A DNA stretch of 64,000 bases from Craspedostauros australis. Taxonomy: Eukaryota; Bacillariophyta; Bacillariophyceae; Mastogloiales; Achnanthaceae. Made by a program: the position numbers and the translations under genes. The notes under the pieces were generated by a model. The model was not told the origin of the DNA, ran no database searches, and saw only the letters and a program-made list of their open reading frames with translations. Where the stretch lies: positions 1-64,000 of the forward strand of contig JAMXDE010000013.1 of assembly GCA_026770025.1 (NCBI GenBank), written 5' to 3'. This document shows positions 22,448 to 50,267 of this stretch, one piece after another (position 1 is the stretch's first letter; the number at the start of each line of letters is the position of its first letter).

Positions 22448-22911
22448 GGTTGAAGAGAGCGGCGTCCGAGTTGACGATGTGACACGAAGCTCCGCTGTTG
22501 GCGAGCCAGGTGTCCTTGTTGACCTTGTCCTTGTACTTGGTGCTCAGCTCATGAAGCTGCTCCACAGCTGCCGCAGCTATCTCGTCGTTAAAGCTGCCGT
22601 CATCGTCGTCTTCGTGGACTCCATCTCCGTTGTGTGGATTGCGGTGGTCCTCATCGTCCATGTTATCGGGTAGTTGCGCATAGTCCGATGGAATCGTACT
22701 GTTTCGATGTGATCGTGTGGCTGGATCATATGGGCTGACGCGTGGTCGTTCGCATGAGAGCACGCGCATGCATCCTCCAAGGATGTAGTGCAGGTCCGTC
22801 TCTGGAATCGTCTCTGGAATCGTCTCTGTCTCATTCGCTTCCAATATGCGGTTGATGACAACCGAATTGGCAAGAATCTCTTCGATTGATCTGAAGTTCT
22901 CGGACAGAATG
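22448..22911 (-). pseudogene. Older Copia element X, protease region fragment
   Basis: The minus-strand frame (22,443-22,911) is acidic and low in complexity, then reaches DTWLANSGASCHIVNSD, the Copia aspartic protease active site. The catalytic Asp of the usual D-S-G is Asn here. Downstream coding is lost: the frame ends at the telomere tract. The upstream part of the same gene lies at 29,365-29,759 on the far side of element 1, and the reading frame continues across if element 1 and one copy of its 6-bp duplication are ignored. The sequence is too diverged from elements 1-3 to be one of them. Confidence 0.75.
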
Positions 22912-23687
22912 TGTTGGAAATCCGGGGTTATAGTAGTAGACTAATCTGTTATCAGTCTGTACCGTTTTAGAACTGTGAGCACAACATGCTCATCTCCTTT
23001 CGATTCCAATTTCACAACAAGCATGATCTGCAGTAGCCACCCGAGGTCACACCCTTTAGCTTGGCTCCTTTCGTCTGCATCTTCATCTTGCTTTCATTGT
23101 GGTTCATCGCTTGCTTAGCTGAGGATTGGAGAGTACCTACATTCGTCAAGTTCATACTCGTAGACCTGTAGGTACCTCTCCTTTGGTCTTCTGTTGCCTC
23201 ACTGGTCCCACTTCATTTCAGTTCCTCCCTCCGGTCATCTCGATGGTTGCCTTTAGATGTTTGGAACTTATTGTCCGGATCGTGGTCTTGGGTGAATAGG
23301 GATCGCCTCTGTTTCGCTTTCTCACATTAGGTTCTCAGGGACGCGTCGACTTGTTCAGATATATTGGTTGTCGCGCTCACTCGATTCACTCATGGGCTGG
23401 TGTGTTGCCATCCTCATAGATCTCTCCGTTCCCGACCGTTATCAGGACATGGCCGAGTAGGCCACTGGATGAGGGTGCTTGGATGTCGCATAAGACAGGT
23501 AAGGCCATTGGGCTGTCCGAGTGCAACTGGTCGATTGCTAGGTTGCGGTTTGTCTGGGAGATGCTATTGGGGGTTGCGGCAATCGTGGGTATCTTTGCAC
23601 TTAATACCATTCCGGTTCCAGTCAGTCCTCATGGGAGCTGCGGTAGAATAGGGTATCTTTGCAAAGTTGTACCCCCGATTCCTGACA
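22912..23687 (-). repeat. Element 1 3' LTR
   Basis: On the minus strand it starts TGTCAGGAATCGGGGG and ends CCCCGGATTTCCAACA. Just inside it (23,688-23,702) the minus strand reads GCGACAATGGAAGGG, a plausible polypurine tract. Confidence 0.92.
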
Positions 23688-23783
23688 CCCTTCCATTGTC
23701 GCACCACCATACTCACTCACACTCACAAATCGTCTCTCGTCACACTCCCTTGTCTCGCTCTTGCACTCATCTCTTCTGTCCCA

Positions 23784-26700: not shown

Positions 26701-27345
26701 GTATCCATGAACAATCGATCCCCGACTCCTTTCGTTCGTTCTTGAGTCGATTTCGACATCGGTCTCTGTCGCGATTTCCCAATCGCGCAGTCAACACACA
26801 CGTTCAGTTTTCCTGTCACGTTCCAGCCGTACCTCCCTGCTGTTCGAGAGATGGTGTACGCGTCAACGTGACCTAACTTTTTATGAATTGTGTTGATGTC
26901 GACTGGTGCGTCGGTCGATACGCCAACATGAGCTTGGTCGTCGGCCTTGGCGTTGCTCACCATGTTCACTCCGCACACGAAACCGCTCTGGGTTGCCATG
27001 ATGCGGTCAAAGCTGATGCGCACGCTGCCTTTCTTCAGGCTGATCACGATGCCGCGGTTGCTAATGTCGAAACCATTCTCGAGAGCTTTGTTAATGCTCA
27101 GTAGGTTCACCCACAGCTTCGGCACGTACTTCACTGACTTGAGCACAACGATGGATGTCTTTCCATTCTTCTGCATGACGCTCATGCGCTTGTCCCCGAC
27201 CTTGGTTGCCTTGAGGAAGCGTCCGCTTCCGATCTTAACGTCCTGATCGGAGATGCGAACGTTGGTCATTCCTTCGTCGCTGTTGGTGAGGTGGCATGAT
27301 GCGCCCGAATCCCCCAACCAGGTATTGGTCTCGTAGCTGTCCGGT
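23784..27345 (-). pseudogene. Element 1 pol: protease, integrase, RT, RNase H
   Basis: A minus-strand open frame of over 1,180 codons encodes, in order, Copia protease (NTWLGDSGASCHLTNS), the integrase HHCC finger (HKKLGH...CVDCAIGK), the integrase core (MDTSSVQTH, CDNAGE, PQQNGRVERK), RT with GTYVDDCLCIG, and RNase H (YADSEFAGDK, SSTEAEYVALSE, YVDNVGAIF, TRHIDIRHHF). It ends LRSTMD then TAA. The pol domains look intact, but the frame has lost its link to gag: a deletion upstream places it in a different frame. The open frame continues slightly past the junction to 27,431, but those codons are out-of-frame gag sequence. Confidence 0.92.
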
Positions 27346-28507
27346 TGTCGCGTGTTTTCGCCTCGCCTGTGTTCACAGACAAGTTGGTCACATTTTCCAA
27401 TTCGTTCGTGTTTCTCGAGGTGGGCACACAAATCAATTCGTCTGTCATCACAAGAGCTACGTCGTTATTTCCCTCCATCCCATCGGTTGCCACATTAGCC
27501 GAGTCTGCCTCTTTCATGGCTGCCTTCAGCTTGAAGCACTGTAGGATCTTGTGTCCCTTCTTACCACAGTACTTACATTCCCCATTGAACTTGGGCTTGC
27601 TGTTGTTGACTCCTTGGCCACTCTTCTTGTTCTTGCCGTTGTCTTTCTTGGGGGCGGAGCGGCAGTCTGCTTTCTTGTGGCCGTAGGCACCACAGTTGCG
27701 GCAGTGACCTTTGAAGCCTCCTACTGCAGCGAATGCAGTCTCTTCCCTGTTACTGTTGTTCTCACGTCTGTTGCCGCCCAGTTTGAGGTATCGGCCGTCG
27801 TAGGTGGCACTGACAGCTTCGCGGATGTCTTCGAGGGTCATGGTATCCTCCATACCGTCGAACTTGAGCTCCAAGAGCTTCACGTCCGTCTCGTATTCCC
27901 TTCCGAGGGCGTTGAGTACGAGCATGTGGTACTGTTTCATATCTATCTTGATACCAGTACTACCGAGGCGATTACGCAGCACTTCCATCTCGGTCAGGAA
28001 CGTGTCTGGGTGCTCGCCTTTCTTCAACCGCATCCCGTTGAGTTGAGCCAACAACTTTGCCTTGATAGGCGCGGTACGTTGCTCGTAGATGCGTTCAAGG
28101 GCCTTCCACGCCTTGCGTGGGTCTCCACTCTCAGTGGGCCCGCCCTTGGTTCCCACCACAGCCATGAAGGCGACATTGCCTTCCGTAGTTTCATGGTTGA
28201 TCGCCATGGCCAGTTCTTCAAACGCGCACTTAGCCAGCCCATTCTTGTATACCTCCTTCTCCTCAGCAGTCATCGAGGCTATCTTCTTCGCGATAGACTC
28301 ACCCTCTTCGATCTTCACATCGGAGATGAGGGCGCTGGGGCCGAAGGGAGCTGGCTTCACCTCCACCTTGTCTAGATCCATGAGATACAGGTCCTCAAGG
28401 CCCCTGCCCGCGGCGCGAGCTAGGAACTTGATGCTCCAACCTGTCTAGCTGGAACGCTTGCCGTCGAAGATAACGACGCGGTCGTTCTTGCGAAGATAGG
28501 AGCTCAT
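27266..28507 (-). pseudogene. Element 1 gag with in-frame TAG at codon 21
   Basis: The first ATG is at 28,505-28,507 and matches the start of element 3's gag (FDGKRSS, then a sequence like W-x-x-W-S-x-KFLARA). Codon 21 is TAG (28,445-28,447), where element 3 has Trp. The same frame then stays open from an internal Met at 28,381. The gag body has the Copia UBN2-like pattern (FEELAMAINHETTEGNVAF, YEQRTAPIKAKLLAQLNGM, KKGEHPDTFLTEME) and two CCHC knuckles, CRNCGAYGHKKADC and CKYCGKKGHKILQC. It ends out of frame after TRDN at the deletion junction near 27,345. Confidence 0.9.
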
Positions 28508-28588
28508 GGTGGTGTGGTGGTGGTGATGTTTGTTGCTGTGTTGGTGGGTGATGGAAACGTTGGATTTCAATCGTAACGTTTCGAAACG

Positions 28589-29364
28589 TGTTGAAAATCC
28601 GGGGTTATAGTAGTAGACTAATCTGTTATCAGTCTGTACCGTTTTAGAACTGTGAGCACAACATGCTCATCTCCTTTCGATTCCAATTTCACAACAAGCA
28701 TGATCTGCAGTAGCCACCCGAGGTCACACCCTTTAGCTTGGCTCCTTTCGTCTGCATCTTCATCTTGCTTTCATTGTGGTTCATCGCTTGCTTAGCTGAG
28801 GATTGGAGAGTACCTACATTCGTCAAGTTCATACTCGTAGACCTGTAGGTACCTCTCCTTCGGTCTTCTGTTGCCTCACTGGTCCCACTTCATTTCAGTT
28901 CCTCCCTCCGGTCATCTCGATGGTTGCCTTTAGATGTTTGGAACTTATTGTCCGAATCGTGGTCTTGGGTGAATAGGGATCGCCTCTGTTTTGCTTTCTC
29001 ACATTAGGTTCTCAGGGACGCGTCGACTTGTTCAGATATATTGGTTGTCGCGCTCACTCGATTCACTCATGGGCTGGTGTGTTGCCATCCTCATAGATCT
29101 CTCGGTTCCCGACCGTTATCGGGACATGGCCGAGTAGGCCACTGGATGAGGGTGCTTGGATGTCGCATAAGACAGGTAAGGCCATTGGGCTGTCCGAGTG
29201 CAACTGGTCGATTGCTAGGTTGCGGTTTGTCTGGGAGATGCTATTGGGGGTTGCGGCAATCGTGGGTATCTTTGCACTTAATACCATTCCGGTTCCAGTC
29301 AGTCCTCATGGGAGCTGCGGTAGAATAGGGTATCTTTGCAAAGTCGTACCCCCGATTCCTGACA
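28589..29364 (-). repeat. Element 1 5' LTR
   Basis: 776 bp, the partner of 22,912-23,687. On its internal side lies a perfect palindrome, CGTTTCGAAACG (28,577-28,588), at the position where a primer-binding site is expected. Confidence 0.92.
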
Positions 29365-29759
29365 AGAATGGATCCCATCATGTTCACCCATATTGGTCTG
29401 AGCACTCCTTGTGCGACTCCTGGGAACAGTTTCACTCCTGCTTCCATTACGGCATCAAAGATGAGTTGTTTCTGGATTATCAATGCTGTCGCCGTTCCGT
29501 ATGGGATGGTATCATGACGATGAAGGTAGTTTGAGTTGTTGGGACTCTCAATCGGTGGGAATTCGATATTCACTGGGTAGACGACACGCTCATTTGGGTT
29601 GAAGCTGTCGTCTGGATGATCCTTGGTTTCGTTGCTGTCATCTTCATCGAAGATGCCCGATCTGTTGTTCCCCGCTGCTGGAGGAGGCGGCGCCGCGCCG
29701 CTGTTCGTTTCGTCTTGGCCTCTATCAATCTCGTTGGTCTCATCGTCGCCCTCTTCACT
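29365..29759 (-). pseudogene. Older Copia element X, region upstream of protease
   Basis: An open minus-strand frame from element 2's edge to element 1's target duplication encodes an acidic, Pro/Ala-rich start, then NIEFPPIESPNNSNYLHRHD and a segment ending VLRPIWVNMMGSIL. The frame continues into 22,911 and lower coordinates if element 1 is skipped. It corresponds in position to the gag-protease linker of a Copia polyprotein. Its upstream part was lost where element 2 now begins. Confidence 0.6.
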
Positions 29760-30537
29760 TGTTGGAAATCTGGGGTTATAGTAGTAGACTAATCTGTTAT
29801 CAGTCTGTACCGTTTTAGAACTGTGAGCACAACATGCTCATCTCCTTTCGATTCCAATTTCATAACAAGCATGATCTGCAGTAGCCACCCAAGGTTACAC
29901 CCTTTAGCTTGGCTCCTTTCGTCTGCATCTTCATCTTGCTTTCATCGTGGTTCATCGCTTGCTTAGCTGAGGATTGGAGAGTACCTACATTCGTCAAGTT
30001 CATACTCGTAGACCTGTAGGTACCTCTCCTTCGGTCTCCTGTCACCTCACTGGTCCCACTTCATTTCAGTTCCTCCCTCCGGTCATCTCGATGGTTGCCT
30101 TTGGATGTTTGGAACTTATCGTCGTCTGGATCATGGTCTTGGGTGAATAGGGATCGCCTCTGTTTTGCTTTCTCATATTAGGTTCTCAGGGACGCGTCGA
30201 CTTGTTCAGATATATTGGTTGTCGCGCTCATTCGATTCACTCAGGGCTGGTGTGTTGCCATCGTCATAGATCTCTCGGTTCCCAACCGTTATCAGGACAT
30301 GGCCGAGTAGGCCACTGGATGAGGGTGCTTGGATGTCGCATAAGACAGGTAAGGCCATTGGGCTGTCCGAGTGCAACTGGTCGATTGCTAGGTTGCGGTT
30401 TGTCTGGGAGATGCTATTGGGGGCTGCGGCAATCATGGGTATTTTTGCACTTAATACCATTCCGGTTCCAGTCAGTCCTCATGGGAGCTGCGGTAGAATA
30501 GGGTATCTTTGCAAAGTTGTACCCCCGATTCCTCACA
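29760..30537 (-). repeat. Element 2 3' LTR
   Basis: 778 bp, plus-strand start TGTTGGAAATCTGGGG and end CCCCGATTCCTCACA, where one base differs from the usual CCTGACA. That changes the terminal bases recognised by integrase on this end. Confidence 0.9.
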
Positions 30538-30631
30538 CCCTTCCATTGTCGCACCACCATACTCACCCACACACAAATCGTCTCTCGTCACACTCCCTTG
30601 TCTCGCTCTCGCACTCATCTCTTCTGTCCCA

Positions 30632-33600
30632 TTAATCCATGGTCGATCTCAACTGAATGATGCTTCCTTTGTGTCTATCGTAGATCTCCTTCTTTGTGTT
30701 TTTGGTGAAGCCGTCTGCGATGTTGTCCTCTGAGCGCACAAATTGAATTCGTGCCTCTCCGTTGTCTATCAGCTCCCGAGTGAAATGATGTCGTATGTCG
30801 ATGTGTCTCGTCCGCGCTGATGTCGATGGATTGGAGGCAATGAAGATAGCCCCCACATTGTCCACATACACATCCACTGGTTTGGTCATCGTCAAGCCGA
30901 TATCCTCCATTAGGTGCGTAAGGAAGCGAATCTCCTTTCCTGCTTCTGATAGGGCGACGTATTCCGCTTCTGTTGAGCTGAGAGTTACACTTTGTTGTGC
31001 CTTCGATCTCCATACAATGGGCACCCCTTGCAATAGGACGAGATGTCCCCCGACACTGATCCGGTTATCCTTGTCTCCCGCAAACTCACTGTCTGCGTAG
31101 ATCTCGATCTTCCATGCGTTGTTCTCCAGTGGGGTTGGTTTCATTCGTAGTCCGTAGTCCCTCGTGTCCGATACGAACTTCATTACTCGCAGCATCTCCT
31201 TGTATGCTGCAGCTGATGGTCCGTCCAATACTTTGGTAAGCTCACGCACTGCATTCGCAATGTCTGGTCGCGAGTGCTTCACCAAGTATAGCAGCATACC
31301 TACTCCGCTTCGGTATCTGCTGTGTCGGTCACTGTCCACTTTGGGTAGGTCGCTGTTTCTCTGAATACCCTGTCCTGGTGTTCCTGGGGTTCCGTATCGT
31401 TGTAGAGTCAGCACGTCATCCTTGAATGTATCGATGATATTCTTGATGATGTGTGGCTGGTTCACCCAGCAATTCGACTGGTCGTTGTTGAAGATGATCT
31501 TGCAGCTGAGGTAGTCTTCGAGGTCGTCCTCCACCTTGATTCCGAATTGCTCAGCCTTAATGTCGATCGTCAGTTGCTTCAACTCCTCCTTTTCTCCGAT
31601 GCATAGGCAGTCGTCGACGTAGGTGCCTATTAGCAGTAGTCTCCCTTCCTGATTCCGAATTAGAAGGCATGGATCCACTTTGCTCTGTCGAAATCCCAGC
31701 TTGAGTAGAATGTCGACCAGCTTTTTGTTCCATTGTCTGGCGCTCTGCACTAATCTGTAGATGGTCTTCTTGAGCAGCAAGCATTCGTCGGCTTCATGCC
31801 TCATCCCCTTCGGGCATTGCATGTAGATCTCTTTGTCGAGTTCTCCATGCAAGAATGCTGTCTCGAAGTCGATGATTATACTATCCATGTGCAGCAGCAT
31901 CTTCATAGTGAGCATGATGCGGTAGGTTGCATCATGAATCACTGGTGCGTGGTGTGCTGAGAAGTCCACTCCTGCGATCTGTGAGTAGCCGCAGGCAACG
32001 AGTCTGGCCCGGAAGACTCCGTTCCTCTTCTCCTTGAAAACCCACTTGGTCTTCACGCATCGCCGATCTCTTGGCATTCGGTTCCTCTTGATCTTCTTCC
32101 ATACTCCTCTTCTGGTCATATCGTTGAACTCCTTATTGATGGCCTCTCTCCACTTCTTTCTCTTCTCGGGATCCGCATGGTCCCAGCATTCTTCGAAAGT
32201 GGTAGGGTCTAGCATCATAGCTACGCTTGCTTGCTCGGGTCTAGCTCGATCATTCGTTACTTGGCTCGCAGCGATGAAGTCATCCAGCCTCATCTTTCCA
32301 TGAGTGGTGTCTATCATCATGCCTGCGACGTCTCTATTGAACATCGACTCGTCTGTGTGGAAGCTGGGTCCCCCTGTCGCCGTTGTCTCGGCTTCTATCT
32401 CTTGAGCCGTTTCTAGCTTCTCATCGTCGGATTCGGAGGTCTCGCTAGATCTGTAGTCTCTGTCCTCCTTAGGGACGGGCGAGTTGTTGTACCCTGCGAG
32501 ATCTCTGACCATCCTTGGTACGTACGCAACAGGTGTTGCGACTGGAGTCGAGGGCGGTTCTTCTTCTACCGTTCTTTCCTCACTCCTTTCATCCTCGTCC
32601 CTTCCGGATTCATCGCCAACATCTTCGTCTGGTTCCTGATCCTCTTGGACGGGTAGCAGGTCGTCCTGCTCTAGCACGGCATCTTCTGAATCTCTTTGTT
32701 CTCCCAATCTGCTGCGCTGCTCATCGTCATCGGTCTCTATATCATTCATGCTATCCGATTGACGAAGCCAAGTCACGCCTCTCTCTGGAGACGACTCCCT
32801 TGATGAGGAGTCGTCGTCTGTGTTCATCACTCTGGATCTGTTGGCATCCTTGATACCCTTGAACTCTCCATACAACTTATTCAACCATGTCACGTCCCGA
32901 GTCATAAGGATTCTTGAGGTGGCAAGGTTCATCATCCGGTACACTCCTTTCGCGTGCGACTCTCCGTATCCCACGAACATGGCAGGTTTGGAGCGGTCGT
33001 CTAGTTTGGCCTTGATAGTCTGTCCACCGATGTGTACCATCCCCATCTCACCGAACACACGCAGGTCATTTGCATACTTCGGGATTTTTCCGTTTAACAG
33101 TATACACGCTGGCTCCCTTGACTTCGTGCCAATGATGTTCTCCAGCTGCGTTGCCGTGTGAGCAGCCTCTGCCCACAGCTTCCCTCGCGTTGTTTTTGGT
33201 AGATGGGTTTGGTTCAGCATGGCGCGTACTTTTCCGTAGAGTGTCGCGAATTTCCTTTCGACGCGACCGTTCTGTTGGGGAGTCGATGCCGCAGTGTACT
33301 CGAAGGTTGGGGCGAATCCCTTGTTAAGTAAGAGTTTCTCTGCAGAACGATTCTCTCCTGCGTTGTCACATCTGACATTTTGAACCGTTACTCGCTGATT
33401 CGCTTCGAGCCATTGGAACAACAAAAGCATCTTCGACCCCACGTCGCTTTTCTCTGTGATGAAGTAACTCCAGCAGTAGTCACTGTAATCGTCGATCACA
33501 AGAAGCCAGTATTTGCCCCTTCTCAGGCTGTGTGTCTGAACGCTTGATGTGTCCATGAACAGTCGATCCCCGACTCCTTTCGTTCGTTGTTGAGTCGCTT

Positions 33601-36283
33601 TCGACATCGGTCTCTGTCGCGATTTCCCAATCGCACAGTCAACACACACGTCCAGTTTTCCTGTCACGTTCCAGCCGTACCTCCCTGCTGTTCGAGAGAT
33701 GGTGTACGCGTCAACGTGGCCTAACTTTTTATGGATTGCGTTGATGTCGACAGGTGCGTCGGTTGACACGCCAACATGAGCTTGGTCGTCCGTCTTGGAG
33801 TTGCTCACCATGGTCACTCCGCAAACGAAACCGCTATGAGTCGCCATGATGCGGTCAAAGGTGATGCAGGCCTTGCCTTTCTTCAGGGTCATGATGACGC
33901 CGAGGTTGCTGATGTTGAATCCGCTTTCGAGAGCCTTGTTGATGCTCAGTAGATTAACCCACAACTTGGGCACGTACTTCACCGACTTGAGCACCACGTT
34001 GTATCTCCTTCCGTTCCTTTGCATGACCGTCATGCGCTTGTCGCCCACCTTGGTCACCTTGAGGAAGCGTCCGCTCCCGATCTTCACATTCTGATCGGAG
34101 ACGCGAATGTTGGTCATACCTTCGTCGCTGTTGGTGAGATGGCAGGATGCGCCCGAATCGCCCAACCAGGTGTTGGCCTCGTGGTTGTCCGGTGCGACGG
34201 AGGAGCGCCTTGCGCTGACGTTGTCGGTGTTGCCGACCACCATTGCCACCTCGTGTTGTTCTGCGCGTTCGGAGTAGATTGGCAGCACCCAGTGCTCCGG
34301 ACTTGGGTTTCGGACTCCGCCGTCACCTGGATGGTAGGTCCAAACGATGGAGTTCGCGGCATGGTGTGTCATGCGCGAAATCAGATCACTGGGGAAGGGG
34401 TCGAAGCGACGGGATTCCAAGCTGTTGTTGATGTTGCATGGGTTGCGGCACACTCCCAGTGTGGTGTGCATCCCGATCTCGTGCAATTTGAAATACACCG
34501 TGCGTGGCTCGATCAGTGGAGTGCGGTCCCCATTGTGGGTGGCCACAGCGTCGTAGCATAGTAAGGCGAGCTCACTTCGCACATCATCCGCTTTGAGCAC
34601 GTTGCTGAGCGATGCTCGAACCGCATTGCGGAGGGAGCCAGCTCTCTCGAGTCTGGTGCGTCGCTCCGCGCGCTCTTCGTCGTTGGTTGGCACATTGCCA
34701 CGCGGCTCATTGTGGAGCTGGATGAAGAAAGGAACTTGGGGGCATTCCATGCACCATGCGTAGAGTGGTCCTCGCTTGAGGCACAGAGGGCACCAGGCCG
34801 TGTTGGTGATGAGTCCTGTCGAGTTCCCGATCATGCGGTCCACACGAGAGAGCTCTGGGGCGAAGTTGAAGATAGGGCGACGTGCCGCTTCTCCTCGGTT
34901 GGCATCGCCCATGTCGTCATCCACGTCCTCGGTGTCGGTGGCCCCTTCGTTGGTGAGGCTTGCGTCGTAGCAGGATTCTTGTCCTTGGTTGGAGTTGCTC
35001 ATCTTGTTGTTGACGTTGTGTGGTCTCAAGGAAACAATGGGAGATGTGTCAGTCTGTTCGACGATGGCTGCAAAGGCGACGTCCTCCATTACATTGGAGT
35101 CAGCTTGGTAGTTGCTGTTGTTGTCGCGTGTTTTCGCATCGCCTGTGTTCATAGACAAGTTGGTCACATTTTCCAATTCGTTCGTGTTTCCCGAGGTGGG
35201 CACACAAATCAATTCGTCTGTCATCACAAGAGCTACGTCGTCATTTCCCTCCATCCCATCAGTTGCCACATTAGCTGAGTCTGCCTCTTTCATGGCTGCC
35301 TTCAGCTTGAAGCACTGTAGGATCTTGTGTCCCTTCTTACCGCAGTACTTACACTCCCCGTTGAACCTCGGCTTACTGTTGTTGTCTCCTTGGCCACTCT
35401 TCTTGTTCTTGCCGTTGTCTTTCTTGGGGGCGGAGCGGCAATCTGCCTTCTTGTGGCCGTAGGCTCCACAGTTGCGGCAGTGACCTTTGAAGCCTCCTAC
35501 TGCAGCGAATGCAGTCTCTTCCCTGTCATTGTTGCTCTCACGTCTGTTGCTCCCAAGCTTGAGGTGTCGGCCATTGTAGGTGGCGCTGACAGCCTCGCGG
35601 ATGTCTTCGAGGGTCATGGTGTCTTCCATACCGTCGAATTTGAGCTCCAAGAGCTTCACGTCCGTCTCGTATTCCCTTCCGAGGGCGTTGAGTACGAGCA
35701 TGTGGTACTGTTTCATATCTATCTTGATACCAGTACTACCGAGGCGATTACGCAGCACTTCCATCTCGGTCAGGAACGTGTCTGGGTGCTCGCCTTTCTT
35801 CAACCGCATCCCGTTGAGTTGAGCCAACAACTTTGCCTTGATAGGCGCGGTACGTTGCTCGTAGATGCGTTCAAGGGCCTTCCACGCCTTGCGTGGGTCT
35901 CCACTCTCAGTGGGCCCGCCCTTGGTTCCCACCACAGCCATGAAGGCGACATTGCCTTCCGTAGTTTCATGGTTGATCGCCATGGCCAGTTCTTCAAACG
36001 CGCACTTAGCCAGCCCATTCTTGTATACCTCCTTCTCCTCAGCAGTCATCGAGGCTATCTTCTTCGCGATAGACTCACCCTCTTCGATCTTCACATCGGA
36101 GATGAGGGCGCTGGGGCCGAAGGGAGCTGGCTTCACCTCCACCTTGTCTAGATCCATGAGATACAGGTCCTCAAGGCCCCTGCCCGCGGCGCGAGCTAGG
36201 AACTTGATGCTCCAACCTGTCTAGCTGGAACGCTTGCCGTCGAAGATAACGACGCGGTCGTTCTTGCGAAGATAGGAGCTCAT
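30632..36283 (-). CDS. Element 2 gag-pol polyprotein (Ty1/Copia), TAG at codon 21
   Basis: The main open frame gives 1,841 residues from Met at 36,157. An upstream ATG at 36,283 is in the same frame but separated by TAG (36,221-36,223). Domains, numbered from the 36,157 Met: gag about 1-200; CCHC knuckles 227-240 and 269-282; acidic linker; a conserved extra domain about 425-640 with C456-PLC-459 and C469-MEC-472; protease D667-S-G; integrase HHCC near 810 and catalytic core to about 965; RT with YVDD near 1514; RNase H from about 1689. All catalytic motifs I can check are present. One oddity is IYRLVQSARQW in RT where elements 1 and 3 have IYGLVQ. It is probably the best template for the family. 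Confidence 0.95.
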
Positions 36284-36364
36284 GGTGGCGTGGTGGTGGT
36301 GGTGTTTGTTGCTGTGTTGGTGGGTGATGGAAACGTTGGATTTCAATCGTAACGTTTCGAAACG

Positions 36365-37142
36365 TGTTGGAAATCCGGGGTTATAGTAGTAGACTAATCT
36401 GTTATCAGTCTGTACCGTTTTAGAACTGTGAGCACAACATGCTCATCTCCTTTCGATTCCAATTTCACAACAAGCATGATCTGCAGTAGCCACCCGAGGT
36501 TACACCCTTTAGCTTGGCTCCTTTCGTCTGCATCTTCATCTTGCTTTCATTGTGGTTCATCGCTTGCTTAGCTGAGGATTGGAGAGTACCTACATTCGTC
36601 AAGTTCATACTCGTAGACCTGTAGGTACCTCTCCTTCGGTCTCCTGTCACCTCACTGGTCCCACTTCATTTCAGTTCCTCCCTCCAGTCATCTCGATGGT
36701 TGCCTTTGGATGTTTGGAACTCATCGTCGTCTGGATCGTGGTCTTGGGTGAATAGGGATTGCCTCTGTTTCGCTTTCTCACATTAGGTTCTCAGGGACGC
36801 GTCGACTTGTTCAGATATATTGGTTGTCGCGCTCATTCGATTCACTCAGGGCTGGTGTGTTGCCATCGTCATAGATCTCTCGGTTCCCGACCGTTATCGG
36901 GACATGGCCGAGTAGGCCACTGGATGAGGGTGCTTGGATGTCGCATAAGACAGGTAAGGCCATTGGGCTGTCCGAGTGCAACTGGTCGATTGCTAGGTTG
37001 CGGTTTGTCTGGGAGATGCTATTGGGGGCTGCGGCAATCATGGGTATTTTTGCACTTAATACCATTCCGGTTCCAGTCAGTCCTCATGGGAGCTGCGGTA
37101 GAATAGGGTATCTTTGCAAAGTCGTACCCCCGATTCCTGACA
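36365..37142 (-). repeat. Element 2 5' LTR
   Basis: 778 bp. The palindrome CGTTTCGAAACG abuts its inner end (36,353-36,364), as in elements 1 and 3. Confidence 0.92.
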
Positions 37143-38143: not shown

Positions 38144-40069
38144 TCACTCTTTTGTCTTGAACATCTTGAGCTTGTCTTGAACTGATGCCAAGTGACGCAC
38201 GATTCCCGGTGTACACATATTGGTGCAGCCGAAGCGTCTCATGTCGGTGCACAAGATCGCAGGGTCGGTCAAGTAGTACTTGCCATTGGCCTTGACACCT
38301 TGAAGATCCGCCACAATCAAGTACTCCTTGGAGAAGACGTACGAGAACTCCACGAAGCGAAGGAGCGACTCATCGATGTGATCGGGATGCCAGGCTCCCG
38401 TGTTGCTGCAGTACTTGGTGAATGGCGTTCCGGTGGTTGGCAGCACATCTTCACCACAGTAGAAACGGTTTCCGGCTGCTTCATTTCTGTCGCTGACCTC
38501 CTCCACCACGCATGCCTGCAGAACCTTGATCATGGCACAGTGCGAAGGACGGAAGGCTGACTTGTTGTATTCGTTGGCAAGGAAGCACACGATGGATGAT
38601 ACCTCCATCTGTTGGAAGTATTGTTGTCTATCGTTGATTCTTGGCCCGTGATGCTTGTTGGTCTTGAGCACCATGGCGTTCTTCTTGAGGCGGAGTTCGG
38701 AATTGTGACGCGCCAGCCTTGCATGGAATGCAATGCGGCATGACCCCTCAGCAAACGGTGATCTCGCCAGTTGGAGCCGGAACTTGAGGTTGACGCGTTT
38801 CATGCAACAGAACCGAGAAATGTAGGTCTGGGCCAACTTGTTGACCGAGAGAGGTGTTCGCAAAGACTGGACGGAGATGCTGCGTGTGTTGCAGTACACG
38901 TTGACAGGCACCGTTGCTTTCCATCCAAAATATGTTGGAAAATCTTTGGAGATTGTGTATGGTTTCATCTTGGCCTTCTTCATCTTCCCTCTGTTTGCTT
39001 CATACTCCACTAACTTGCTCTGAGAGTCGATCAACGACACCGAGTTGAAGACAGAGTGGCGGACGCTCTTGACCACGACTTTCTCAACCATTTCGGGAGA
39101 AGAGAAGTCCACAACCTCGAGATCAATGTTGTAGACGGACGCAAACCGCTCAATCATCTTGTCCGTTTTCTTGGTGATACGACCAAAGAAGACGTTCATG
39201 GTTCCACCCCTTGGATTGGTCCTGAGTTTGGACAGCTCCGAGACGATGTTGATGCCTGGAGTGCCGGTCGGATAGTTGTCGCCAGACTCACCGTGGTTGT
39301 GGAATTCGGTTCCATGACATGCATCATCACCAACGATGAAGGCGACTCTGGTGGGGTGCATCCAGGAGAGCTCATTGGCCTTTTGGATGCCAACCGCTAT
39401 GTCTTCTGCACGGTCGTCGCTGCGAATGGACTTGACTCCCTTCAGGAAGCGTTCGAAGACACTGACATCATCCACGAAATCAAGTACTTGATATCGATCA
39501 GACCCATTGTAAATGTCTCGGTAGGCCACGAACCCCAACCGTAGATCCTTCCCCTTTCCATCAGCCTTGATCTTCTTGACAATCTTGCGGATGGTCTGCT
39601 TGGCACCGTCGATGTATGGCCCCATTGAACCAGTAGCGTCCATGATGAACACGAGATCGATTTCGTTCTCCACAGCGTCAAGTTTGCCCAGCACGTCCTT
39701 GATATTGGATTCCCTCATGCGACGCTTCAGTCGGCATTGATGCAGCTTTGCGGCAAGCTCCTCGAGGGATTTGGTGGCATTGTCGAGTTGTTCACCAAAA
39801 TTGCTGATCTCAGTGTTGCATTGAGAAAGTAGTCCGGAAGGTAGGGTTTTGCTTGTGTCCAACTTACATTTCTGCATCATGTCTTGGGCTGCCTTGATGC
39901 TTTCGTCGAGTTGCACTCTTATTTTGGCCTCCTTCTTCTCCGCATCGCTGATCTGTTGTTGGATATCCTCCTCATCATCGCTGTCATCCTCTTCCTCCTC
40001 TCCGATCTCCTCGAGAACAGCCCCACCACCGCCGAGACTCACGAACTTTTTATTCTTTTTTGGCGGCAT
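38144..40069 (-). CDS. vWA domain plus alpha-kinase protein (vWKA-like)
   Basis: A 641-residue single-exon protein. Residues 1-40 are basic then strongly acidic, and 40-130 look like a coiled coil. From about 136 to 335 is a von Willebrand A domain with the metal-site motif D144-ATGS-148 and later GDDACHG. From about 415 to 630 is an alpha-kinase domain: PFAEGSCRIAFHARL (438-452), VLKT with Lys469, FVEFSYVFS, DLQG (588-591), LTDPAI (600-605) and FGCTNMCTPGI (613-623). Alpha-kinases are atypical Ser/Thr kinases; a Dictyostelium vWA-kinase has the same architecture and similar length. In the usual G-x-G-N-x-G-x-x-G pattern two glycines are replaced here, and the C-terminal zinc cysteines are not visible, so activity is uncertain. 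It is the only convincing host gene in the window, set between two retrotransposons. Confidence 0.85.
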   Translation of the reverse strand: MPPKKNKKFVSLGGGGAVLEEIGEEEEDDSDDEEDIQQQISDAEKKEAKIRVQLDESIKAAQDMMQKCKLDTSKTLPSGLLSQCNTEISNFGEQLDNATKSLEELAAKLHQCRLKRRMRESNIKDVLGKLDAVENEIDLVFIMDATGSMGPYIDGAKQTIRKIVKKIKADGKGKDLRLGFVAYRDIYNGSDRYQVLDFVDDVSVFERFLKGVKSIRSDDRAEDIAVGIQKANELSWMHPTRVAFIVGDDACHGTEFHNHGESGDNYPTGTPGINIVSELSKLRTNPRGGTMNVFFGRITKKTDKMIERFASVYNIDLEVVDFSSPEMVEKVVVKSVRHSVFNSVSLIDSQSKLVEYEANRGKMKKAKMKPYTISKDFPTYFGWKATVPVNVYCNTRSISVQSLRTPLSVNKLAQTYISRFCCMKRVNLKFRLQLARSPFAEGSCRIAFHARLARHNSELRLKKNAMVLKTNKHHGPRINDRQQYFQQMEVSSIVCFLANEYNKSAFRPSHCAMIKVLQACVVEEVSDRNEAAGNRFYCGEDVLPTTGTPFTKYCSNTGAWHPDHIDESLLRFVEFSYVFSKEYLIVADLQGVKANGKYYLTDPAILCTDMRRFGCTNMCTPGIVRHLASVQDKLKMFKTKE

Positions 40070-42757: not shown

Positions 42758-43438
42758 TGTTGGAAATCCGGGGTTAGTGTTAGTAAGAGCTAATGGGTTG
42801 TTAGATCGTACTATTCAGAACTGTGAGTTCATTCTCTTCAGCTCCTTTGCCTTTCGTTTCTCATGTAGCATCTCCTGCAGCAGCATCGTGTTAGACTGTT
42901 GCGTTCATGCATCTCATCATCATGAATCAACGCTTGCATGCATGAGATCTCATCCGTAGGCGTCCTTGTCATGCACATCGTCGTGCATATCCGTAGGCAT
43001 TCTTGCCATGCACCTCGTCGTGCATATCCTTATTCTACATTCCCTGTGGTACGATTCCACAGTCTTGCGTTTCGCTCTTGATCTCCTGACATCGAACTTT
43101 ACGATTGGTGTCATGATTGGTGTCATGGATGATGCCCTTTCTGAGTTGTTCTAGTCCCTGGCTGACACGTGCCATGATCTCCAGATGGGGTGATCATCAA
43201 TGTGTCGGTCATCATCTTCCTTCACCTGATTTAGGTATCGTGGCCTTTTCTTGATTCACAAAGGACAGGCTTGTTTTCTTGGTAAGACTGAGGTCATTCC
43301 CGTGTGATTCGTGTCGTGGGTGGAATGGATGATATTCAAAGGTGTGACGAATAATATCCAAAGGTGTGACAAATAATGTTGGGAGTTGCGGCAATCATGG
43401 GTATCTTTCCGACAGAGTCGTACCCTCGATTCCTGACA
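42758..43438 (-). repeat. Element 3 3' LTR
   Basis: 681 bp, sharing ends and several internal blocks with the LTRs of elements 1 and 2 but forming a separate subfamily. The minus-strand sequence just inside it, with GGAAGGG, is the likely polypurine tract. The solo LTR at 62,174 belongs to the same subfamily. Confidence 0.93.
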
Positions 43439-43513
43439 CCCTTCCATTGTCGCATCGACAACACATCACTCACACTCTCACATCTTTCATAATTTCGTGT
43501 CCTCTCCTCTCCG

Positions 43514-46500
43514 TCATTGATCCATTGTGGAGCGCAGTTGGATGTAGTGATCCCGGTGTTTTTCATAGGTTTCCTTTTTGGTATTCTTTGTAAAGCCATC
43601 TGCGATGTTGTCTTCAGAACGTACAAATTTGGTTCTGGCCTCTCCGTTTGTGATCAGTTCTCGAATGAAATGATGTCGGATGTCGATGTGCCGTGTCCTG
43701 GCGGATGTTGATGGGTTGGACGCGATGAAGATCGCTCCAACATTGTCAACCATCACGTCTGCCGGCTTGTGCATCCTCAGTCCGATGTCGTTCATCAATT
43801 GTGTTACGAAGCGAATTTCTTTTCCTGCCTCCGACAGGGCGACGTACTCTGCTTCCGTCGAGCTGAGTGTTACGCTCCGTTGTGCCTTTGATCTCCATAT
43901 GATCGGCACTCCTTGTAGTAGGACGATGTGCCCTCCTACGCTGATGCGATTGTCCTTGTCACCTGCGAACTCGCTGTCGGTGTATATCGCAATCTTCCAT
44001 GCATTTTGGGTCAGTGGACTTGGTTTCATCTTCAGTCCGTACTCTCTCGTGTCCCATATGAACTTCATGACTCGAAGCATTTCCTTGTATGCTGCGGCTG
44101 TTGGTCCATCCAACACCTTGGTCAGTTCCCGCACTGCATTGGCGATGTCGGGTCGAGAGTGTTTCACCAGGTATAGCAGCATACCTACTCCGCTTCGGTA
44201 TCTGCTGTGTCGTTGCTTGTCCACTTTGGGTGCATCGCTTTGCCTTTGGATGCCTTGCCCTGGTGTTCCAGGCGTTCCGTACCGTTGCAGCTTCACCACA
44301 TCGCTTCCGAACGTATCGATGATGTTCTTTAGGATGTGTGGTTGGTTCACCCAGCAGTTCGTCTTGTCGCGGTTGAAGATGATCTTGCAGCTCAGGTAGT
44401 CTTCGAGATCTTCCTCCACTTTGACACCGAATCGTTCTGCTCGAATATCCTTCACAAGCTTTTTCAGTTCCTGCTCCTCTCCGATGCAGAGGCAATCGTC
44501 CACATAGGTGCCGATCAGTAGCAGTCTCCCTTCCTGATTCCGAATCAGCAGGCATGGGTCCACCTCGCTCTGTCTGAACCCTAGTTTGAATAGGATGTCG
44601 ACGAGCTTCTTATTCCATTGTCTCGCGCTCTGAACAAGGCCGTAGATGGTTTTCTTGAGTAGCAGGCATTCGTCGGCTTCGTGCCTCATACCTTTTGGGC
44701 ATTGCATGTAGATCTCTTCATCGAGGTCCCCATGCAGGAATGCTGTCTCAAAGTCGATGATGATGCTGTCCATGTGTAGTATCATCTTCATCGTGAGCAT
44801 GATTCGATATGTTGCATCATGTATCACTGGCGCGTGGTGTGCTGAGAAGTCGACTCCTGCGATTTGCGAGTATCCGCATGCCACGAGTCTGGCGCGGAAC
44901 ACCCCATTTCTCTTTTCCTTGAAGACCCATTTGGTCTTCACACACCGCCGATCCTTCGGCATCTGGTCCTTCTTGATCTTCTCCCATACTTTCCTTCTGG
45001 CCATATCATAGAACTCTTTGTTGATAGCTTCGCGCCATTTCTTTCTTTTGTTGGGATCCGCATGGTCCCAGCAGTCTTCGAATGTGGTGGGGTCCAGCAG
45101 CATGGCGACATTCGCATCTTCTGCCCCTCCTTCATTTCGTTCGTCCTTCAATGCCTGGTCCGCAGCGATGATGTCATCTAGTCTCATCATTCCATGAGGT
45201 GTGTCTATCATCGTACCTGCGATATCTCTGTTGAATATTGACCCGTCTGTGTGGAAGTCGGGTCCTCCTGTTTCCGGTGGATTTGTGATGGTCTCTTCGG
45301 GCGTCACATATCCCTCGCTGTCATTAGGTTCTGACTCATCACTTGATCCGAGATCTCGCTCCTCCTCTGGGATTGGGTCGTTGTTATACCTGGCGAGAGC
45401 GCTCAGCATCCTTGGTATGCGTGTTACAGGTTCTGCGACAGGGGTGTCTTTGGGCTCACTCTCGGCCGCTTTGTCTACTTTCCCCTCGTCGTCCCTTCCG
45501 AATTCATCGTCGTTGTCTTTGTTCGATTCATCTTCCCCTTGGGCAGGGAGCAAGCCATCTTGCCCTCGCGCAGCGTCTTCAGTATCTTCTATTTCTTCGG
45601 CTCTGCTGCTGCGATCCGCGTCGTCGGCCTCCATGCTCTTGATGGTCTCCGATCGTCGCTACCAAGTTGTTCTCGTAGCTCGGGTGTTCATACCCGACGT
45701 AGAGTCGTCATCTTCCAGATCTATCAGCACAGATCTGTTGGCATTCTCGATACCTCTGAATTGCCCGTATGACTGATTCATCCATGTCACGTCTCTCGTG
45801 ATTAGGATCTTGGTTGTTGCGAGATTCAGCATTCGATATACTCCTTTCGCGTGCGATTGGCCGTAGCCGACGAACATGGCTGGTCTGGATCTATCGTCCA
45901 GCTTAGCCTTTATCGTACGACCGCCGATGTATACCATGCCTATTTCTCCGAATTTTCGTAGTCCATCCACGAATGTTGGGATGCGGTTGTTGAAGAGAAC
46001 ACATGCTGGTTCTCTTGTCTTTGTCTCGATAATATTTTCAAGCTGAGTCGCGGTTCGGGCTGCCTCCGCCCACAATTTTCCACGCACTGTTTTCGGTAGG
46101 TGCGTTTGGTTGAGCATGGAGCGGACTTTCCCGTACAATGTTGCGAATTTTCTTTCCACGCGACCGTTCTGTTGGGGAGTGGAAGCGGCGGTGTATTCAA
46201 ACGTTGGGCCGAATCCTGCGCTGAGAAGCTGTTTTTCCGCGGCATAATTCTCTCCCGCGTTGTCACATCTGATATTTTTCACATGTGCCTGTTGGTTGGA
46301 GTGAAGCCATCGGAGGAGCGTGATCAGCTTCTCTCCGACTTCACTTTTCTCTTTCAAAAAATAACTCCAGCAGTAATCACTGTAATCATCGATGACAAGG
46401 AGCCAAAATTTTCCTTGTCCGTAGCTGTGCGTTTGAACACTCGATGTGTCAATGAACAACCGCTCACCAATTTCCTTTGCTCGGCGCTGCAGGCGTTTTG

Positions 46501-49500
46501 TCATTGACTTCTGCTTTTGTTTTCCAATTGCGCAGTCAATGCATGCATGCAACTTGCCTGTGACATTCCAACCGTATCGTCCCGCTGTGCGAGAGATCGT
46601 GTAAGTGTCAACATGGCCTAACATTTTATGAATTTGGTTGATGTCCACCGCGGACCCGGTGGACACGCCGACATTGGCTTGGTCTTCGTGGGGAGGGGCG
46701 CTGATCATGTTCACTCCACTCACGAAACCGCTGTGGGTTGCCATGAGTCTGTCGAACGTAATGCGTTGCCCGCGCTTCTCCAAGCTCATCACGACACCTT
46801 GGTTGCTGATGTCGAAGCCGTTCTCGAGAGCTTTGTTGATGCTCAAGAGGTTCACCCACAGGTTGGGCACGAACTTCACTTGCTTGAGCACGATGGTAGC
46901 TTGGTTCCCGTTCTTCTGCATCACGACCATGCGTTTGTCGCCGACCTTTGTTGCCTTGAGGTATCGGCCGCTGCCGATCTTGATGGAGTGGTTGGCCACT
47001 CGTACGTTAATCATTCCCTCTTCGCTGTTGGTGAGGTGGCATGAGGCACCGGAGTCACCCAGCCATGTGTTTGCCTCGTGGTGGTCGGGGGCGATGGTAT
47101 GGCGGAGTGCGCTTGCATCGCCGAGGTCACCGATCACCATGGCCATGTCTGGTTGAGCGTCTTGGTGGTCACCGATCACCATGGCCATGTCTGGTTGAGC
47201 TTCGGCGGCTCGGTAGATGGGGAGCTGGTTGAACTCCTCTGGGTCTCGGACTCCTTGGTCTCCTGGATGATGCATCCACATCAGCATCTCTGCGGCATGC
47301 TGGACCAGGCTGTCGATGAGCCCTCTGTGGATGGGTGGCAGGTTGAGCTCCTCAAGCCTTGCGTTAATGTGTTGCACGGCTTGCACCAGTTGCATTGGCG
47401 TGTACACGTCGATGCGGTGCATCATGTAGTAGAGCGTGCGAGGGTTCAGGCTTTCTCCTCCTCCTTCGGCGTACGCGTGCGCCGCGTCGCAGCACAGTAG
47501 GGCGAGCTCAGAGCGTACTTCATCAGCAACCATCATGTTGCTGAGAGAGTATCTCATTGCGACATGCAGAGGTCCTGCAGTCCAGAGCTTCTGGCGGCGC
47601 GTCATGATGTCTTGGATCGTTGTTGGCGCCGCCCTTGCAGGGGGGTTTGCCAGTTGAATGAGGAACGGCGAGTTACGGCAGGTCTTGCACATGGCGTAGA
47701 GAGGGCCGCGCTGAAAGCACAGCGGGCACCATCCTGCGGTGCTTCCTCCGTTGCGGGACGACTCTTCGATCATTCGATCGACCAGAGTCCTTGGTTCGGT
47801 TCGAGAGTAGATGGTGGAGGTGACGCGATGGTCGACTCCAGGCATCGCTACTTCATTCTCCATGATGTCCCCGACGTTGAGGGGTTCATCCTCGTAGACG
47901 ATCCCGTCGAAGAGGTTGTCTTCGTCGGTGTAATCGTCTTCGTCGCTTGATGGGAAGTGCTCGCGGTTGATTGTCTCAACTGCAGCTACTGGGGGTCCGT
48001 AGTATCCGTATACACTCGGGGTGTGGGCCTCTCGTTCCTCTTCGGAGTACTCGACCTCTTCTTCGAGGTCGAGTCCGGTCATGTCTTCGTCGGTAGTCGC
48101 GAGGGCCATGTCGTCGATGAACGACTCGTAATGCGCCATGTCGGTGGTGTTGATTGTTTGATTTTTCTTGATGTTCGTGATTTCGTCGATTGTCACGATT
48201 CTTGGGTTGGTCACATTTTTGACCTCAACGGGGTCGGTTTCGAGCTCGTCGATGGGGAAACACACCAATTCTTCGTTGTTGGCCGACTTGTCTTCGTCGG
48301 GCAGCCACATGGATTCATCGGTCATCACGAGATCGATGTCGTCTCCTTCGTCGCTGGCGAGCATCCACATGGGCTCGTCTACCACGACGAACGCGGCGTC
48401 GTCTGCCGCGGCGTCTTCAGGTAACCACATCGGTTCCTCGACCATCACGAGGGCGACGTCGTCTGTTCCGTCCATACCGTCGGTGGCCACGTTGGCGGCG
48501 TCGGCTGCTCTCATCGCTGCCTTCAACTTGAAGCACTCGAGGATCTTGTGTCCCTTCTTACCGCAGTACTTGCAGTTTCCGTTGAACTTGGTCTTGTCCT
48601 CAGTATCACTTCTCTTGTTCTTCTTCGTGGGCTTGCCACCTTTGTTCTTAGGCGCAGAGCGGCAGTCAGCCTTCTTGTGCCCGTAGGCGCCGCAGTTGCG
48701 GCAGTGGCCCTTGAAGCCACCAGTGGCGGCGAGAGCCATTTCTTCCTTGTTATTGTTCTCGCGCTTACTACCTCCTTGCTTGATGTGACGTGCGTCGTAG
48801 GTTGCACTCACAGCTTCGCGGATGTCTTCGATAGTCATCTGCTTTTCGATGTTCTCGAACTTGAGCTCGATGAGCTTCACATCCATTTCGTAGTCCCTCC
48901 CGAGAGCGTTGAGCACGAGCATGTGGTACAGCTCCATGTCCATGTTAACTCCCGCGTGCTTGAGGCGGTTACGGATCACCTCCATTTCGGTGAGGAAGGT
49001 ATCCGGGTGTTCGCCTTTCTTCAATCGCATCCCGTTGAGTTGAGCCAACAACTTTGCCTTCATTGGCGCAGTACGTTGCTCGTAGATGCGCTCGAGAGCC
49101 TTCCACGCCTTACGAGGGTCTCCTCCCTCGTAGATGTTGCTCTCGCATCCCAACACAGCCATGAAGGCGACATCGCCCTCGGTAGTTTCATGGTTGATTG
49201 CCATGGTCAGTTCTTCAAACGCGTACTTGGCCAGAGCCAACTTGTACTCCGCCTTCTCGTCGGGAGACATGGCAGATAACTTCGAGGCCTTAAGCTTCTT
49301 CTCTTCGCTTCCCACGATGGAGGCGAGAGGAGAGGGGTCAAAGGCTTCGGTCTTCACAACCACTTCATCCAAGTCCTTGAGATACAAGTCTCCATAACCC
49401 TTGCGGTTGGCGCGGGCGAGGAACTTCGCACTCCAAGCTTTCCAGGAGGATCGCTTGCCGTCGAACATGATCATGTAACGATCGGTCTTACCGAGGAAGG

Positions 49501-49507
49501 ACGTCAT
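43514..49507 (-). pseudogene. Element 3 gag-pol, split by one in-frame TAG
   Basis: From Met at 49,507 the frame runs 1,282 codons to TAG at 45,659-45,661, then continues in the same frame to 43,514 (706 codons from the next Met). Order: gag (FDGKRSSWKAWSAKFLARA at the N-terminus), two CCHC knuckles near 272-330, three to four acidic repeats with EPMWLP-like cores, the extra Cys4 domain (WCPLC...CKTC near 593), protease DSG near 817, integrase from about 960, RT with GTYVDDCLCIG, RNase H. The TAG lies in the linker between integrase and RT, where elements 1 and 2 read W-L-R-Q. It would separate gag-PR-IN from RT-RH unless read through. Confidence 0.93.
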
Positions 49508-49586
49508 GGTGATGATGGTGAGAGTCGTTTGTTGCTGTGTTGGTGATGATGGAAACGTAGGATTTCAATCGTAGCGTTTCGAAACG

Positions 49587-50267
49587 TGTTGGAAATCCGG
49601 GGTTAGTGTTAGTAAGAGCTAATGGGTTGTTAGATCGTACTATTCAGAACTGTGAGTTCATTCTCTTCAGCTCCTTTGCCTTTCGTTTCTCATGTAGCAT
49701 CTCCTGCAGCAGCATCGTGTTAGACTGTTGCGTTCATGCATCTCATCATCATGAATCAACGCTTGCATGCATGAGATCTCATCCGTAGGCGTCCTTGTCA
49801 TGCACATCGTCGTGCATATCCGTAGGCATTCTTGCCATGCACCTCGTCGTGCATATCCTTATTCTACATTCCCTGTGGTACGATTCCACAGTCTTGCGTT
49901 TCGCTCTTGATCTCTTGACACCGAACTTTACGATTGGTGTCATGATTGGTGTCATGGATGATGCCCTTTCTGAGTTGTTCTAGTCCCTGGCTGACACGTG
50001 CCATGATCTCCAGATGGGGTGATCATCAATGTGTCGGTCATCATCTTCCTTCACCTGATTTAGGTATCGTGGCCTTTTCTTGATTCACAAAGGACAGGCT
50101 TGTTTTCTTGGTAAGACTGAGGTCATTCCCGTGTGATTCGTGTCGTGGGTGGAATGGATGATATTCAAAGGTGTGACGAATAATATCCAAAGGTGTGACA
50201 AATAATGTTGGGAGTTGCGGCAATCATGGGTATCTTTCCGACAGAGTCGTACCCTCGATTCCTGACA
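49587..50267 (-). repeat. Element 3 5' LTR
   Basis: 681 bp, with the palindrome CGTTTCGAAACG at its inner edge (49,575-49,586). Confidence 0.93.

Follow-up and report, generated by a model that had tools for sequence, protein, structure and literature searches.

We analysed a 64,000-nucleotide stretch of the genome of the diatom Craspedostauros australis (positions 1 to 64,000 of contig JAMXDE010000013.1, assembly GCA_026770025.1), here called the window, with particular attention to an extra domain encoded between the gag zinc knuckles and the protease of two of its retrotransposons. Three related Copia elements occupy the minus strand of the window, and the plus strand carries a fourth that has decayed. 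These are Ty1/Copia retrotransposons, as seen from the Copia order of domains in one polyprotein and from their long terminal repeats (LTRs).

Element 2 extends from 29757 to 37142 between its outer LTR ends (LTRs at 29757-30537 and 36361-37142) and encodes its polyprotein in a single open frame (30632..36157) in the order gag, two CCHC knuckles, acidic linker, extra domain, protease, integrase, reverse transcriptase (RT) and a last part that we take to be RNase H from its position. Library matches fall along it in the order Retrotran_gag_2, Pol_BBD, SH3_retrovirus and RVT_2; the rve and CCHC models match below their cut-offs only. Element 3 (outer LTR ends 42758..50267) has the same layout, apart from a split in its frame near 45.65 kb. 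Element 1 occupies 22908-29364, with LTRs at 22908-23687 and 28585-29364. Identity between the two LTRs is 98.1% for Element 2, 99.0% for Element 1 and 99.7% for Element 3.

The extra domain in Elements 2 and 3

A first-pass annotation of the window had placed an extra segment between the gag knuckles and the protease of Elements 2 and 3. We confirmed the segment in both elements and located all of the motifs that had been named there. In Element 2, the tandem CCHC zinc knuckles of gag lie at 35312..35479 (individual knuckles at 35438-35479 and 35312-35353), the extra domain, modelled as 214 amino acids and conserved in all 17 aligned copies, lies at 34232..34873, and the protease starts with WLGDSGAS at 34145..34168. 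The domain includes a Cys4 module of the form W-CPLC-x9-CxxC (WCPLCLKRGPLYAWCMEC, 34742..34795), the motif DVRSELALLCYDAV (34544-34585), a predicted five-helix module recognised by a profile match and in the structure model (model residues 100-180; 34334..34576), and YHPGDGGVRNP (34304-34336). Alignment with Element 2 places the same domain of Element 3 at 47171..47809 and its Cys4 module at 47678..47731; the counterparts of DVRSELALLCYDAV, YHPGDGGVRNP and WLGDSGAS are at 47480-47521, 47240-47272 and 47042-47065, respectively. Every one of these features is encoded on the minus strand. In Element 3 and its family, a 14-residue stretch (AQPDMAMVIGDHQD-like) is also repeated directly before the protease (47069-47240, minus strand), and motifs similar to this repeat recur in the linker.

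The domains of Elements 2 and 3 are 42-43% identical, the gag and pol DNA flanking them is 74-75% identical, and positions 34249-35221 of Element 2 have no DNA-level alignment with Element 3. Few folded parts of the polyprotein are as diverged as the domain. All four cysteines are invariant across the alignment of 17 copies chosen for their similarity, and they are among its 45 invariant columns. The pattern C-x2-C-x9-C-x2-C sits 208-224 residues before the protease motif in both window elements and in 47 locus records, likewise chosen by similarity and including six that repeat another record or the window. This pattern has no histidine and does not fit the CCHC knuckle, C-x2-C-x4-H-x4-C. RanBP2-type zinc fingers follow W-x-C-x(2-4)-C-x3-N-x6-C-x2-C, which none of the 17 copies fits: the spacing is 9 rather than 10, and the asparagine is absent at its place. 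The Cys4 module probably binds zinc.

An AlphaFold2 model based on a 14-row alignment has a mean predicted local distance difference test score (pLDDT) of 67.0. It superseded an earlier two-row model (mean pLDDT 49.7), together with the weak list of PDB matches obtained from the latter. In the 14-row model the first residues, residues 81-98 and the tail fall below a pLDDT of 50, and the Cys4 part scores about 65-71. The best structural matches, drawn from families in the VIA-align list, include DNA-binding HhH-like domains; weak matches include protein-interaction domains such as NusA AR2 and GIPC GH2. A SAM-like or helix-hairpin-helix fold is one candidate. The Cys4 of the first-pass annotation stands, but what it described as a single domain resolves into a Cys4 module and a separate helical module. 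Short motifs recur at the borders (56 matches, compared with 15.6 expected and a maximum of 29 in 500 shuffles, for a pattern picked post hoc) and might be candidate protease cleavage sites.

Copies in the genome and selection

The assembly comprises 74.8 Mb in 90 contigs. When it was searched with the Element 2 segment, 261 candidate places were found and 150 were scored, all 150 of which are stop-free within the segment. This stop-free state and the invariant cysteines are far beyond chance. The domain copies fall into several families that are about 38-48% identical to each other. Copia elements are numerous in this genome, given the 1493 first-look candidates (150 scored) in a search for RVT_2. 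Among the matches listed, with 150 of 261 and 150 of 265 candidates scored, we saw no stand-alone copy of the kind that a captured host gene would represent, and the shorter open frames look like truncated elements.

Ratios of nonsynonymous to synonymous divergence (dN/dS) were obtained by pairwise counting for 22 copies with open frames of at least 1800 amino acids. Within-family ratios alone are quoted (families A, n = 10; B, n = 3; F, n = 7; and E, n = 2, with 24 changes), because dS between families is saturated or erratic. For families A, B, F and E in that order, dN/dS is 0.195, 0.067, 0.107 and 0.333 for the domain, 0.077, 0.044, 0.055 and 0.016 for RT, and 0.118, 0.079, 0.260 and 0.222 for the gag core. 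The linker between gag and the domain gives 0.170-0.216, and in family A the domain (0.195) is no more constrained than the linker (0.201). Between families, dN is 0.49-0.64 for the domain, 0.03-0.08 for RT and 0.39-0.83 for the linker. The domain is thus a fast-evolving part of the polyprotein. Set beside RT, its dN/dS of 0.067-0.333 is not near 1, the value that would have spoken against the first-pass annotation, and the data support a real extra domain under purifying selection. The same annotation had argued from conservation to selection; the selection is borne out by dN/dS, but the conservation is not unusual, the domain being among the most diverged folded parts.

Element 1, which adjoins Element 2 and is 95-97% identical to it, has lost the whole domain through a 926-bp deletion corresponding to positions 34194-35119 of Element 2 (deletion point 27344..27345, minus strand). 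It also causes a frameshift between gag and pol. Of 40 scored matches to the junction region (72 candidates), the only full one is the junction's own locus, so this loss looks like private decay.

Relatives among environmental Copia polyproteins

Direct searches with the domain yielded no usable match: residues 435-660 of Element 2 as a protein query gave 979 candidates, none at E 0.001; the 17-copy alignment gave 2874, none at E 10; and neither the 15 domain-pattern matches in viral contigs nor the 16 in prokaryote genome contigs were confirmed. A protease-to-RT query matched 251 environmental polyproteins, 120 of which were used. The gag-protease gap was counted in 77 of these, the protease motif being unplaced in 21 and the knuckle in 22 more. 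The gap is at least 150 amino acids long in 27 of the 77 and short in the other 50. C-x2-C-x9-C-x2-C occurs in 10 of the 27 long-gap proteins and in none of the 50 short-gap proteins (shuffling average, 0.0015), and each of the other Cys4 spacings between 4 and 17 is seen once at most among the long-gap proteins. P0020, one of the 22 proteins with no placed knuckle, also has the Cys4. A glycine two positions before the first cysteine and another four after the second are each present in at least 90% of 12 aligned sequences. The best match of the profile from the window's genome within the 120 is P0071 (E 3e-4). In P0051 and P0055 the gag-protease gap contains two Cys4-type motifs, and the module seems to have been duplicated there.

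A second pattern is common to the environmental gaps, which BLAST links to one another. A profile was built from 11 such helical segments, BLAST-linked and picked partly by eye, with no C. australis sequence among them, and its match to the window alignment spans 52 columns (P 2e-5). This match scores 35, compared with at most 17.8 for column-shuffled controls (0 of 400 reach the match) and 12.8 for the reversed alignment. When the environmental segments were used as the alignment for structure prediction, model residues 101-170 reached a block pLDDT of 85-97, compared with 63-82 when two sequences were used, which supports homology of the helical module by a second route. Seven of the other 16 long-gap proteins were tested: the helical match is significant in P0001 (0 of 150 shuffles as good), borderline in P0092 (1 of 150), and not significant in P0036 (15), P0101 (45), P0018 (70), P0013 (125) and P0039 (49, each of 150).

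The helical module also occupies this position in a very numerous Copia family of the C. australis genome, represented by L051 (654-1271), for which 150 of 456 candidates were scored. The L051 insert lacks the Cys4 and matches the environmental helical profile (0 of 150 shuffles as good); its match to the window's own alignment is not significant (46 of 300 shuffles as good; P 0.15 in another comparison).

In an RT tree of 128 leaves rooted at the midpoint, all insert-bearing proteins fall on one side of a branch (56 leaves, support 0.967). An insert here means either the Cys4 motif or the helical module, and P0020, P0036 and P0092 count by Cys4 alone; Element 1 was labelled insert-bearing on this tree although it lacks the domain. 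The same side includes 8 short-gap leaves, 6 long-gap leaves with no motif and 18 of unknown state, and the state is unknown for 42 of the 128 leaves overall. A second tree excluded Element 1 and used one window representative; of its 77 scored tips, 15 have the insert. Here 4 changes suffice for the trait, whereas 1000 shuffles needed at least 10 and on average 13.9; such counts do not separate gain from loss. Given this clustering, the insert seems to be an old feature passed down within the clade, some members having lost it or carrying forms that escaped recognition. The domain is not peculiar to these elements, as it recurs in environmental Copia polyproteins that group together on the RT tree.

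Exchange of domain versions

Among family A copies, the domain and the protease show synonymous divergence of 0.57 and 0.52, compared with 0.11-0.16 for the gag core, integrase, RT and RNase H. The block of raised divergence covers about residues 400-780 of Element 2, with limits that vary by pair. L016 and L017, which lie on different contigs, differ at 77 of 540 nucleotides within residues 586-766 and at 29 of 5268 outside; L011 and L021 differ at 245 of 1140 within residues 406-786 and at 147 of 4668 outside. The block statistics for these pairs are 504 and 457; the highest values in shuffles were 32.2 and 19.5. The opposite is seen in L020 and L021, which have a block in common on more different backbones, and L010 and L011 differ most elsewhere, at residues 1106-1306. 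One pair was tested in each of two other families: that of family F has no block above its shuffles, and that of family B has a weak block from residue 279.

The exchanged stretch in L016 and L017 begins inside the domain, and third-position divergence between these copies is 0.08 for the domains and 0.28 for the proteases. Because the domains are close and the proteases differ, domain and protease need not travel together. As read from these alignments, recombination or conversion brings in divergent versions of the domain. Swapping by itself does not explain why divergent versions persist.

Comparison with known domains and elements

The first-pass annotation knew of no such domain in well-studied Copia elements, and we likewise found neither a specific library match nor a description. 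Sequence searches of the PDB were unconvincing (best E-values 1.5, 0.26 and 0.031). Pfam gave scattered zinc ribbons, including a ZNF598 finger at 0.12 in 1 of 17 sequences and zf-AtTam37 in 2 of 14 (best 0.03), and no specific NCBIfam model matches the domain. Annotation that relies on Pfam and NCBIfam would miss the domain, since neither has a specific model for it. Paired CxxCxGxG motifs characterise the DnaJ zinc domain. The Cys4 module resembles such DnaJ- or BSD2-like domains, and zinc ribbons generally, in having two CxxC knuckles close together; the first knuckle reads CxxCxGxG in environmental P0016 and P0025, and the window copies lack the inner glycine. Other scattered matches were weak: BSD2_CRD at 0.027 (1 of 12), zf-HIT at 0.0014 (1 of 12) and a PADR1 ribbon at 0.0093 (2 of 12), with DnaJ structure 1exk (E 0.42) and RtpA (0.039, 1 of 14) all below threshold. 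In the literature that we searched, mostly titles and abstracts and excluding most subscription journals and all preprints, the domain seems to be undescribed.

The elements themselves are of a known kind. Tandem CCHC fingers in gag are reported for the diatom elements CoDi6.2-6.5 (PMC2806351), and Elements 2 and 3 share with these CoDi6-type Ty1/Copia elements both the tandem fingers and the order protease, integrase, RT, RNase H. In the available passages of that report there is no mention of another domain between the knuckles and the protease. Like CoDi-A, with a chromodomain at the end of integrase, and the sireviruses, whose knuckles are duplicated or triplicated and whose gag has a large C-terminus (PMC2774666), these elements form a Copia lineage marked by an added protein feature. 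However, the additions in those lineages are at the integrase end or in the CCHC motif, and the passages available mention no Cys4-plus-helical module. Passages of an Ectocarpus paper likewise do not mention such a domain.

The fixation of an extra domain by an LTR retrotransposon lineage has a parallel in orchid Gypsy elements, which carry an AlkB N6-methyladenosine (m6A) demethylase; the available part of that report calls such fixation a rare event (PMC9289625). The orchid domain is enzymatic, has a separate reading frame and sits in Gypsy elements, whereas the present one is in frame, non-enzymatic-looking and in Copia elements. Extra conserved domains of this kind point to unknown steps in the contest between element and host. 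Finally, Ty1 members are described as exchanging a divergent gag-side segment by recombination, which alters who restricts whom (PMC7055915). The present elements are like their Ty1/Copia relatives in recombining such a segment. In Ty1, though, gag itself is swapped, whereas here it is a separate domain with or without the protease, and an effect on restriction would be hypothetical.

We found no name for this domain, which belongs to a known kind of element and is real, old, under selection and built of two modules. That it represents a clade-restricted accessory domain at the Copia gag/protease border, with a Cys4 and a five-helix module, is highly probable. The sequences themselves show the domain, its conservation and spread, its grouping on the RT tree and the swapping; zinc binding, entry into particles, the interaction role and the partner are inferred.

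Proposed function of the domain

Since the domain is in frame before the protease, it is made with Gag-Pol and should enter the virus-like particle with it. There it most likely serves as a protein-protein interaction module, one that would help to set which Gag or Gag-Pol molecules, or which host partner, the particle engages, while it evolves under purifying selection and through the exchange of divergent versions, often jointly with the neighbouring protease. We propose this mechanism tentatively, as a possibility short of an even chance; the statement as a whole, from the identity of the domain to its role in the particle, we regard as evenly balanced. The charge of the domain favours a protein-protein module, with an isoelectric point (pI) of 4.4-8.3 in 17 copies compared with 9.8-10.0 for the CCHC region in four. 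The 5' leader favours it as well: eight family A copies with domain divergence of up to a third vary by only 0.9-6.3% in the 450 nucleotides before the open frame, so recognition of the RNA leader is not what diverges.

An adaptor to a host protein, acting in transport, chromatin targeting or evasion of defence and changing fast as its partner evolves, is a possible but unlikely alternative; the first-pass annotation had raised a host-factor adaptor together with a capsid adaptor, and either may apply. It would fit the fast between-family change in protein sequence (dN 0.49-0.64, compared with 0.03-0.08 for RT), the neutral to acidic charge and the weak matches to NusA AR2 and GIPC GH2. However, dN/dS is well under 1, as estimated by pairwise counting rather than at site level, and there is no known partner. 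The adaptor overlaps with the interaction module that we favour, the partner being the sole difference.

The first-pass annotation had suggested that the Cys4 binds RNA or DNA. An accessory nucleocapsid of this type, packaging or chaperoning the element RNA or binding cDNA, would agree with the Cys4 motif, the position beside the CCHC knuckles, the DNA-binding HhH-like domains among the best structural matches and the 3 of 12 environmental segments that are basic (9 of 12 have a pI of at most 6.5). We consider it improbable, as the domain is neutral to acidic in all 17 genome copies, beside a basic CCHC region and an acidic linker (net charge -19 to -57), and the leader does not diverge with the domain.

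Alternatively, the segment could regulate or partner the protease, timing its activation and being swapped to match it. The domain directly precedes the protease, and the block of raised divergence spans both, as in L011 and L021. Against such pairing, the L016/L017 exchange begins inside the domain and joins close domains to different proteases, and short-gap relatives have a protease with no domain, so we doubt this explanation strongly. A passive spacer or decaying leftover, as might be suggested by the long, acidic and hardly alignable neighbouring linker and by the loss in Element 1, is contradicted by the dN/dS of 0.07-0.33, the invariant cysteines and homology across divergent environmental elements, and the Element 1 deletion shifts the frame and has a junction found in full nowhere else, making this explanation extremely improbable.

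A narrower form of the interaction module is a self/non-self assembly module, whose versions would be kept and swapped as particles of a different version escape interference from older copies. We offer this as a long shot. If true, it would be a Copia counterpart of the Ty1 gag exchange under copy number control, and the clade would carry a dedicated, swappable specificity cassette consisting of the domain with or without the protease. The swapping makes this idea worth testing, and where backbones are nearly identical, the swapping of a divergent domain-protease block offers a natural experiment on the factors that limit or favour copies in a genome full of Copia elements.

Other features of the window and genome

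The decayed fourth Copia fragment lies at 9141-11297 on the plus strand, where a stop interrupts its RVT_2 match. A host gene between Elements 2 and 3 (38147-40069, minus strand) encodes an alpha-kinase domain (E 1e-28) and also matches VWA weakly. In two further Copia families of the genome (L049 and L050) the gag is short and carries another Cys/His motif (WCxNHxxWxKHKxxxC-like), and in the copies examined it is separated from the protease by a stop codon. The silicic acid transporter family, which marks diatoms, has 88 matches in the genome, far more than in most diatoms; 32 of these cover at least 483 of 513 positions, and 4 of the 32 have internal stops.
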